DNA of 64,000 nucleotides from Acetomicrobium thermoterrenum DSM 13490 (lineage in GTDB: Bacteria > Synergistota > Synergistia > Synergistales > Acetomicrobiaceae), in the NCBI RefSeq assembly GCF_900107215.1, contig NZ_FNPD01000002.1, positions 62,001 through 126,000 on the forward strand, written 5' to 3'. The notes under the pieces were generated by a model. The model did not search any database and was not told the DNA's origin. It worked only from the letters and a program-made list of their open reading frames with translations. This document shows positions 41,767-44,191 of this stretch, piece by piece. Both the position numbers and the translations under genes were made by a program. Within the stretch, counting starts at the first letter, position 1, and every line of letters starts with the position of its first letter.

Positions 41767-42417
41767 TCAAAACTCCTTCTTGGGTTTTCCTATTATCCAT
41801 ACGACCTTTCCGATCACTTTCACCAAACCTGAGATCAAATCTTCTTTATCAAAAAATATGGGGCTGTAAGAAGGATTGGCTGGCCTTAATTCTAAAGAAC
41901 CGTCGGCCTTGGTGTATATGTATTTCACCGTCCACTCGTTGCCGATCGACACGAGGGCCACATCTCCCTGACCAACTTCGGCATTGGGATTGATGACGAC
42001 TATAGAGTTATCTGTTATTCCTGCCCCAATCATGCTTTCGCCGGAGATTCTGACGGCAAAGGGGGGGATATCGCCAACAGGTCCCAGGGCATCTTCGGGA
42101 ACATAAATCATCTCTTCCACGACGGGATATATCCCCGTCTGATCCAGGGCCTTTCCCGCAGCGGTCACCGAGGCCTGATCCAACAATGCCACTTCAGTCA
42201 CATCTAAAGCCTTTTTTGAAAAACCCTCAAGCCCTGTCAGATAATCTATGCTGGTCTGCAACTCCTTCGCGATTTTAACCAACAAGTTAAGGCTTGGAGT
42301 CTTCTCTCCTCTTTCTATTTCGCTGATATGAGACGGGCTGGTCTTTACTCGCCTCGCCAATTCAGTGGCGGTCATTCTCATCTTCTTCCTCAAAGTCCTT
42401 ATGCGTTCGCCCAACAT
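41767..42417 (-). CDS. LexA/CI-like repressor: Xre helix-turn-helix plus S24 self-cleavage domain
   Basis: A 216-residue repressor. Residues 5-60 form an Xre-type helix-turn-helix (MTATELARRVKTSPSHISEIERG). The C-terminal S24 domain has Ser128 (SGESM) and Lys165 (WTVKY), 37 apart as in LexA. An Ala87-Gly88 bond in the linker is a candidate cleavage site. It diverges from umuC with repeated operator-like sites between them, so it probably represses the mutasome operon and itself until DNA damage. Confidence 0.88.
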   Translation of the reverse strand: MLGERIRTLRKKMRMTATELARRVKTSPSHISEIERGEKTPSLNLLVKIAKELQTSIDYLTGLEGFSKKALDVTEVALLDQASVTAAGKALDQTGIYPVVEEMIYVPEDALGPVGDIPPFAVRISGESMIGAGITDNSIVVINPNAEVGQGDVALVSIGNEWTVKYIYTKADGSLELRPANPSYSPIFFDKEDLISGLVKVIGKVVWIIGKPKKEF

Positions 42418-42449
42418 CTTTCTTTCACCCCCATCCTACATAATACACC

Positions 42450-42530
42450 TTGTGCGAAAATATATTCTCTTTGAGCGAAAATAGTTCTTAAGACTCATTG
42501 ATATTTTACCAGTAGCGAATATATTTGTTA
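42450..42530. promoter_or_regulatory. Three operator-like repeats between the repressor and umuC
   Basis: Two direct repeats 21 bp apart, TTGTGCGAAAATATATTCT (42450-42468) and TTGAGCGAAAATAGTTCTT (42471-42489), plus a third related site, AGCGAATATATTTG (within 42512-42530). The first two face the repressor gene. The third covers the -10 of umuC. Confidence 0.6.
42498..42525 (+). promoter_or_regulatory. Promoter of umuC-umuD
   Basis: TTGATA (42498-42503), 16 bases, TATATT (42520-42525), overlapping the third operator-like site. Confidence 0.5.
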
Positions 42531-42561
42531 ATAACTGCCGAATTTGCGGGAGGTCTTCGAG

Positions 42562-43821
42562 ATGATAGCGCTAGTGGATTGCGATAGTTTTTACGCCTCA
42601 TGCGAAAGGATATTTCGGCCGGACTTAGAGGGCAAACCGGTGGTCGTCCTGTCCAATAACGACGGATGTGTAATAGCCAGATCGCGAGAAGCCAAAGCCT
42701 TAGGGATACCCATGGGCGTGCCGTACTTTAAAGTCAGAGAAACGATCTCAAAAAACGACGTGGCGGTCTTTAGCTCAAACTATGCCCTTTACCAAGACAT
42801 TTCAAGCAGAGTCCTGGAGACGATACGGCATTTTTGTCCCGAAGCAGAGCCCTACTCCATCGACGAAAGTTTCTTAGTGCTCGACTCTTTAAAATCGAGC
42901 GATGAGATCGCCTTTGCCAAAAGGCTGCGCCGCTCGATAAAAAGATTTGTAGGAATACCCGTATCCATTGGCATCGGCCAGACAAAGACATTAGCGAAAA
43001 TCGCCACCATGTTGGCGAAAGAGGCCAAGGAAGGCGTATATGATATCGCCGCACAAAAAGACCCCGACTCGGTTTTGGCAGGCATAGATGTGAAAGACGT
43101 ATGGGGAATAGGGGGTCGCCAGTCCAAAAAGCTGCGGGCGATTCGTATACGCACAGCCTGCGACCTGAAATACGCCGAAGAAGGATGGATAAAAAAGCAC
43201 CTATCCATCGTTGGCTTAAAAACGGTATATGAGCTCCGCGGGTTGAGATGTTTCGGTTTTCGGGAAGTTCCGGACAACAGAAAGAGTATCTGCGTTTCAA
43301 GGTCGCTGGGGGTCTATTTGACAAGTTACGACGAACTCAGTCAGGCCGTGGCCTTTTATGCATCCTTGGCCTCGGAAAAACTGAGAGCGCAAAGGTCGCT
43401 AACCGATACCGTCACAACCTACATAGCCACGAGCTTTCATACCGACGACTTCTATTGGGGCACCAGGACAATACGCCTTGAGACTCCAAAAAACGACACT
43501 CCATCGCTTGTCAAGACAGCCTTAGAAGGGCTTAAACTAGCTTATATAGAGGGAAAGAAATACAAAAGGGTGGGTGTTCTGTTTACCGAGATTACTCCTT
43601 ACGAGGTGCAACAGAGGGGACTTTTTTGTGACACAGGTCAGTCCGTCAAATTAAACGCCTTAATGCATATCATCGACAAAATAAATTTTGAAGCCAACAA
43701 ACCCATGATCTGGCTCGCCGCCGGAGGCAAGCCGAACAGCCAAAAGTGGGTAGCCAGCGCTTCCATGCGCTCACCTCGCTACACATCTTACTGGGACGAA
43801 ATCCCCTTGGTAAAGGTATGA
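42562..43821 (+). CDS. umuC: Y-family translesion polymerase UmuC
   Basis: A 419-residue error-prone polymerase. The catalytic motifs are [16 protein letters not shown] and [11 protein letters not shown] (acidic pair SIDE). [17 protein letters not shown] and the UmuC-type C-terminal little finger and tail (MIWLAAGG) set it apart from DinB. ATG 42562 follows GGGAGGTCTTCGAG; an earlier in-frame TTG is ignored. It is paired with a umuD-like gene 13 bp downstream, the reverse of the E. coli umuDC order. Confidence 0.93.
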
Positions 43822-43834
43822 CGGAGGTATCTAA

Positions 43835-44191
43835 ATGCGACGTTTCAATACCACCACGGGCTTTCCCACGCCCGCCGCAGAAAAGGCCCACTCCTTGGAT
43901 TTAAACGAATTGGTCATACACAACCGCCCATCAACATATTTCTTACGCGCTTCGGGCGACCGCCCCGAATTGGGCATAGCAAAAGGCGACGTGTTAATTG
44001 TAGATCGTTCCTTAAACCCCAGGGAGGGGGATATCGCCATAGTCGTAGAGGATAACGAACTTCATCTGAAGGAAGTTACCCCTCTAGCCATACGATCGTG
44101 GACTAATGCAAACCTACAAGACACTCCGACGCTAGAAGAGTTTTTCGGCATTGTAACGTGGATAATGCACGAAACCAGAAGCAAAAGATAG
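43835..44191 (+). CDS. umuD: UmuD'-like S24 protein with the catalytic serine lost
   Basis: A 118-residue S24-fold protein that aligns with UmuD from its GFPSPA segment on (here TGFPTPAAE, residues 8-16). Only eight residues precede the Gly that starts mature UmuD', and the Cys-Gly cleavage bond is absent. The catalytic SGDSM motif reads SGDRPE, with Arg43 for serine and one residue fewer; Lys79 is kept. The protein therefore cannot self-cleave and looks like a directly encoded UmuD'. With UmuC it should form a pol V-like enzyme. Confidence 0.88.
   Translation: MRRFNTTTGFPTPAAEKAHSLDLNELVIHNRPSTYFLRASGDRPELGIAKGDVLIVDRSLNPREGDIAIVVEDNELHLKEVTPLAIRSWTNANLQDTPTLEEFFGIVTWIMHETRSKR

Follow-up and report, generated by a model that had tools for sequence, protein, structure and literature searches.

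In Escherichia coli, self-cleavage of UmuD serves as a post-translational timer, or safety delay, on SOS mutagenesis. Removal of the UmuD arm precedes formation of UmuD'2C, after which a RecA subunit and ATP are still needed (PMC6511836, PMC6375631), and in the published model of Pol V the extreme C-terminus of UmuC binds UmuD' (PMC11791011). Phage P1 offers a known exception, a UmuD that is 'already activated', according to a passage of PMC7092418 citing McLenigan 1999. This protein, HumD, is encoded directly as UmuD', as are phiKO2 gp23 and the D6 protein (NCBIfam NF051876), with translation starting at GFPSPA and an altered active-site loop; the HumD loop reads ADSHHR, so that the assignment of its serine depends on gap placement. 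The locus described here shares this born-trimmed form, but members of the HumD group are borne by phages or plasmids, lack a umuC of their own, are LexA-boxed and have Met immediately before GFP.

The window, the whole 64,000-nucleotide stretch of DNA that was analysed, comes from an Acetomicrobium (Synergistota) genome of ~1.97 Mb and contains a divergently transcribed repressor gene, a umuC and a umuD'-like gene with the following features:

41767-42417, minus strand: divergent HTH_3-S24 repressor (216 aa); serine in SGESM, lysine in TVKYI, probable Ala-Gly cleavage site VTAA|GK
42418-42561, no strand assigned: shared promoter/operator region with three GCGAAwATA-type repeats at 42454, 42475 and 42515 (weak candidate operators)
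42562-43821, plus strand: umuC, 419 aa, with IMS, IMS_C and DUF4113 domains, intact catalytic D/D/E and a clamp-binding-like QxxLF
43823-43827, plus strand: GGAGG, a good ribosome-binding site of umuD' by sequence
43835-44191, plus strand: umuD'-like gene, 118 aa, N-terminal arm and catalytic Ser absent
43961-43963, plus strand: CGC codon (Arg43) where the nucleophile serine of S24 proteins would stand, from sequence and alignments
44069-44071, plus strand: codon of Lys79, which aligns with Lys97 of E. coli UmuD; kept in the window protein, replaced in many relatives (by R, E or W)

Directly downstream of umuD' and convergent with it lies a gene for a large ABC_ATPase (PF09818; 44198-45997, minus strand) with ABC_N and MRB1590_C domains. 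The interpretation that we favour, with a probability of about 0.8, is that umuD' encodes a hard-wired, protease-dead UmuD' that acts as structural accessory subunit to the upstream UmuC in a Pol V-like translesion polymerase, gated by transcription and RecA and not by UmuD cleavage.

By direct reading, the product of the plus-strand ORF 43835-44191 starts MRRFNTTTGFPTPAAEKAHSLDLNELVIHNRPSTYFLRASGDRPELGIAKGDVLIVDRSLNPREGDIAIVVEDNELHLKEVTP. It belongs to the S24 family (Pfam PF00717, 4.9e-10) and matches the UmuD' structure 1umu in the PDB by sequence (2.5e-13). It combines homology to UmuD and the S24/UmuD' fold with an adjacent umuC, from which its gene is separated by 13 nt. An AlphaFold2 model of a protein of this type (class A, below) reached pLDDT 75 and has 1umu as its top PDB match (2e-5), with a low-confidence N-arm in line with a free arm. 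The arm of a UmuD has ~24 residues and ends in Cys/Ala-Gly; this protein has eight residues ahead of Gly9, and the bond there is Thr8-Gly9. An alternative upstream start, which would add an arm, is excluded because an in-frame TAA (43832-43834) directly abuts the ATG. The active-site loop reads ASGDRPELGI against ASGDSMIDGGI in E. coli, CCC (Pro) coming straight after the CGC codon, and Lys79 is present without the serine that would complete the Ser-Lys dyad. The sequence-only reading had pointed to the eight residues before Gly, the missing Cys-Gly bond, Arg43 (CGC) followed by Pro and the retained lysine, all of which were confirmed by direct reading and alignment; its proposal that the protein is born as UmuD' is borne out by the stop abutting the ATG together with the missing arm. 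Its description of serine as changed to arginine can be refined: E. coli has one residue more in this loop, and whether the serine went by substitution or by deletion depends on how the two loops are aligned. As judged from its sequence, this UmuD' is made directly in its trimmed form and would be incapable of self-cleavage, and no cleavable UmuD was found elsewhere in the window's genome.

The same state is fixed in the genus. The catalytic serine is absent in all four other intact Acetomicrobium copies, three of which have Arg (SGDR) and one Cys; the latter (SGDCPELGI) is the most distant copy, 68% identical overall, yet its residues 1-19 are identical to those of the window protein. The alignment of orthologues that the sequence-only reading had suggested, in search of SGDSM, returned SGDR or SGDC instead, and more distant orthologues have no equivalent Ser. 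A recent inactivating mutation or a sequencing error was rejected, as several genomes agree. Estimates of dN/dS (Nei-Gojobori) were 0.14–0.41 in close umuD' pairs, with few changes behind these values, and ~0.08 against the distant copy, for which dS is saturated; on these codon comparisons, Acetomicrobium umuD' is under purifying selection.

We surveyed 188 Synergistota genomes, of which 66 contain UmuC relatives at a total of 70 places, and searched the flanks of all 70. A UmuD-derived partner is present at 43 loci (12 class A, window-like, and 31 class B), the 27 without a partner including a remnant in one Acetomicrobium congener (G011). The GxSM catalytic serine motif is absent from all 43 partners in the 188 genomes, the Ser-less UmuD' state is present in three families, and the lysine is also lost in several class A lineages (R, E, W). 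All class A proteins have Thr/Ser-Gly ahead of FP, with arms of 4–8 residues that vary between families, and umuD' sits next to umuC wherever the locus is intact. When the 188 genomes were searched with a profile built from long, cleavable UmuDs, only class A proteins and HTH-S24 repressors matched, so that no cleavable UmuD was found in the phylum; two odd matches (G157:C131 and G029:C1) turned out to be one HTH-S24 repressor and one ORF of repressor-like type.

Class B proteins, which we term mini-UmuD', are about 85–105 residues long, and Pfam recognises none of 29, with sub-threshold matches to the UmuD and HumD models in 24 and 23 of the 29, respectively. The class B profile found 31 strong places adjoining umuC and two weaker orphan matches without a nearby umuC across the 188 genomes. 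Profile-profile comparison links class B to class A (99.4%, 2.9e-21), and the five best PDB matches of a class B AlphaFold2 model (pLDDT 82) are UmuD' and UmuD structures; against 1umu the TM score is 0.67 with probability 1.00, at modest E-values (3e-3). Together, the profile and modelled-structure comparisons place class B with UmuD'. At two class B loci (L030 and L032), an S24 repressor gene, mini-umuD' and umuC are co-directional, the first two overlapping, and the repressor gene is not divergent.

The window UmuC scores 388 bits with NCBIfam PRK03609, below the 431-bit cut-off, although this is still its best model match. The equivalents of D6, D101 and E102 are intact in all class A, class B and partnerless UmuCs that cover them. 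Class A UmuCs share an SPxYT tail with the E. coli protein, the tail being shorter or altered in most class B UmuCs. In a quick unrooted UmuC tree, class A sequences lie close to UmuCs of the E. coli type, and those of class B group with the partnerless ones from Synergistota; class A may have a single origin. Partnerless UmuC-like proteins (L061, L065, L066, L069, L072, L074 and others) have two distinctive conserved C-terminal tails, of RFQNHSEDF and PxRRVxF type, which perhaps bind some other partner.

Loss of the cleavage site and of the catalytic motif also go together more widely. UmuD-like proteins of phages, viral contigs, plasmids and Synergistota were grouped into 35 clusters. Of the 23 clusters that have an Ala/Cys-Gly site, 21 retain Ser and Lys, whereas none of the 12 that lack it retains the GxSM motif (Fisher 1e-7, relatedness ignored). 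The two exceptions are viral UmuDs (L121, 1423-1935, and L124) with arm and Ala-Gly site intact but Ser replaced by Ala and Lys by Arg, which from these replacements are apparently uncleavable full-length UmuDs; in L121, a SRAP-like ORF (1832-2431) overlaps the end of the UmuD gene. Two IMG/VR contigs (L118 and L119) contain a UvrC-like ORF, a umuC and a UmuD' of 112 aa that includes TTGFPSPA but lacks the catalytic Ser, the dead UmuD' ahead of a umuC in L118 being an apparently separate, independent-looking case.

The divergent repressor has what is expected of a LexA/CI-like S24 repressor, namely an HTH and an S24 domain with Ser, Lys and an Ala-Gly site, from which its cleavage is predicted. 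The site was assigned by eye against other S24 repressors of the survey; Thr-Gly (LDQT|GIY) was dropped as a candidate because relatives have CAG or CCG at the matching place, favouring VTAA|GK. It departs from LexA in that HTH_3 replaces the winged helix, with 60 of 111 bits to TIGR00498, and no canonical LexA (PF01726) was found above cut-off genome-wide; besides UmuD', the repressor alone passes the S24 cut-off in this genome, which also contains a recA gene. Across the phylum, 12 umuC loci have an HTH-S24 repressor alongside. The repeats of the intergenic region are conserved in four genomes, and matches to the GCGAAwATA-type motif across the window are not above chance. A wider SOS regulon built on these repeats found no support, palindrome matches being fewer than in the control; neither a second operator nor a good recA site was found for the motif, whose two other exact matches fall inside coding sequence.

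These observations suggest a two-step gate. A protein that is already trimmed skips RecA-dependent self-cleavage, and the catalytic Ser, no longer used, has been lost, as has the Lys in many relatives. Damage would most likely be sensed by the adjacent S24 repressor, whose self-cleavage apparatus is complete; its RecA-triggered cleavage would release transcription of umuC-umuD', and a second RecA-dependent activation would follow at polymerase assembly, where UmuD' would join UmuC in a mutagenic complex. The sequence-only reading had assigned control entirely to this repressor, a view favoured by its retained Ser, Lys and probable Ala-Gly site; 'entirely' is an overstatement, because E. coli Pol V also requires a RecA subunit and ATP after UmuD' has formed.

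Several other explanations were weighed. The absence of both serine and arm would also fit a decaying pseudogene of an ordinary umuD, and in G011 the repressor, umuC and umuD' are indeed all remnants at one locus (L095, 2320-2985), which looks as if the three genes were lost as one unit, standing or falling together. In the window, however, the frame is open over its full length and has a ribosome-binding site, and the dN/dS values below 1, the conserved arm and the occurrence of the same state in three families make decay very improbable. Alternatively, the protein might still be processed in trans, the neighbouring repressor or another protease cutting Thr8-Gly9 to leave a G-F-P N-terminus exactly as in E. 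coli UmuD'. The Thr/Ser-Gly ahead of FP throughout class A and a repressor that is by its residues an intact S24 protease are in keeping with such a cut, which we nevertheless consider unlikely given that class A arms are merely 4–8 residues long and unlike between families, and that Thr at P1 differs from the Ala/Cys of cleavable UmuDs.

It is also highly unlikely that the gene is an acquired phage-type HumD serving any UmuC instead of a dedicated operon subunit: the born-trimmed architecture is the same, translation starts near GFPSPA without an arm, and the NCBIfam HumD model gives a match (2.7e-14) that at 53.2 bits stays below the equivalog cut-off of 120, but identity to HumD is just 28%, and HumD and phiKO2 gp23 come without umuC where the window gene is umuC-linked in every intact relative. 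A role in restraining UmuC or RecA, as a checkpoint or inhibitor with no part in polymerisation, has a precedent in the further roles of the E. coli umuDC products, UmuD'C inhibiting RecA-mediated recombination (PMC5342242); conservation here of both regions that make contact in the Pol V model (PMC11791011), the C-tail of UmuC and the GFPxPA arm, makes it very unlikely.

For the phylum as a whole, we consider it reasonably probable that Synergistota have abandoned UmuD autoproteolysis. In this view the subunit would survive as a dead UmuD', most lineages that possess a subunit having the mini-UmuD' version, which is ~90 residues long, escapes Pfam and has acquired new N-terminal arms. Sensing would have passed to a separate S24 repressor, and the whole would form a natural series leading from UmuD towards a YolD-like, purely structural subunit. 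The sequence-only reading had missed both the P1 HumD precedent and this phylum-wide state with its more reduced family. Literature searches returned nothing on this for Synergistota, and main-text passages of recent surveys of Y-family complexes (PMC6511836, PMC12926913) do not mention the phylum or such a subunit; a chromosomal, phylum-wide UmuD' born as such, and its mini form, thus appear to be undescribed so far. With no cleavage timer at any of its UmuD-linked UmuC loci, the phylum is a natural experiment on the need for that timer, shows which part of UmuD the polymerase requires (arm and fold, not protease) and brings to light a family of small subunits, so far without annotation, next to Y-family polymerases.

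Compared with described systems, the window protein has the S24 fold, GFPxPAA arm, UmuC partner and Lys97 counterpart of E. coli UmuD/UmuD', but no 24-residue arm, Cys-Gly bond or Ser60, and its gene comes after umuC, not before it. YqjX/YolD, the small subunit of the Gram-positive YqjW/UvrX polymerases, is likewise described, in passages of PMC6511836 and PMC12926913, as small, SH3-like and non-proteolytic, and as the partner of a neighbouring Y-family polymerase; the YolD model PF08863 matches no class A or B protein, both classes being UmuD-derived and not homologous to YolD by sequence. UmuDAb of Acinetobacter is also a UmuD relative at the umuDC locus of LexA-less bacteria, but it is self-cleaving and its added N-terminus binds DNA (PMC8565304, PMC4807011), whereas at the window locus sensing and effector functions would be split over two genes. 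In architecture, the window repressor resembles the non-canonical HTH_3-S24 LexA of Bacteroidetes, which also combines a phage-type HTH with an intact S24 domain and controls error-prone polymerase genes (PMC8565304); unlike that LexA, for the window repressor a wider regulon was not found, and it adjoins the umuC operon that it is proposed to control.
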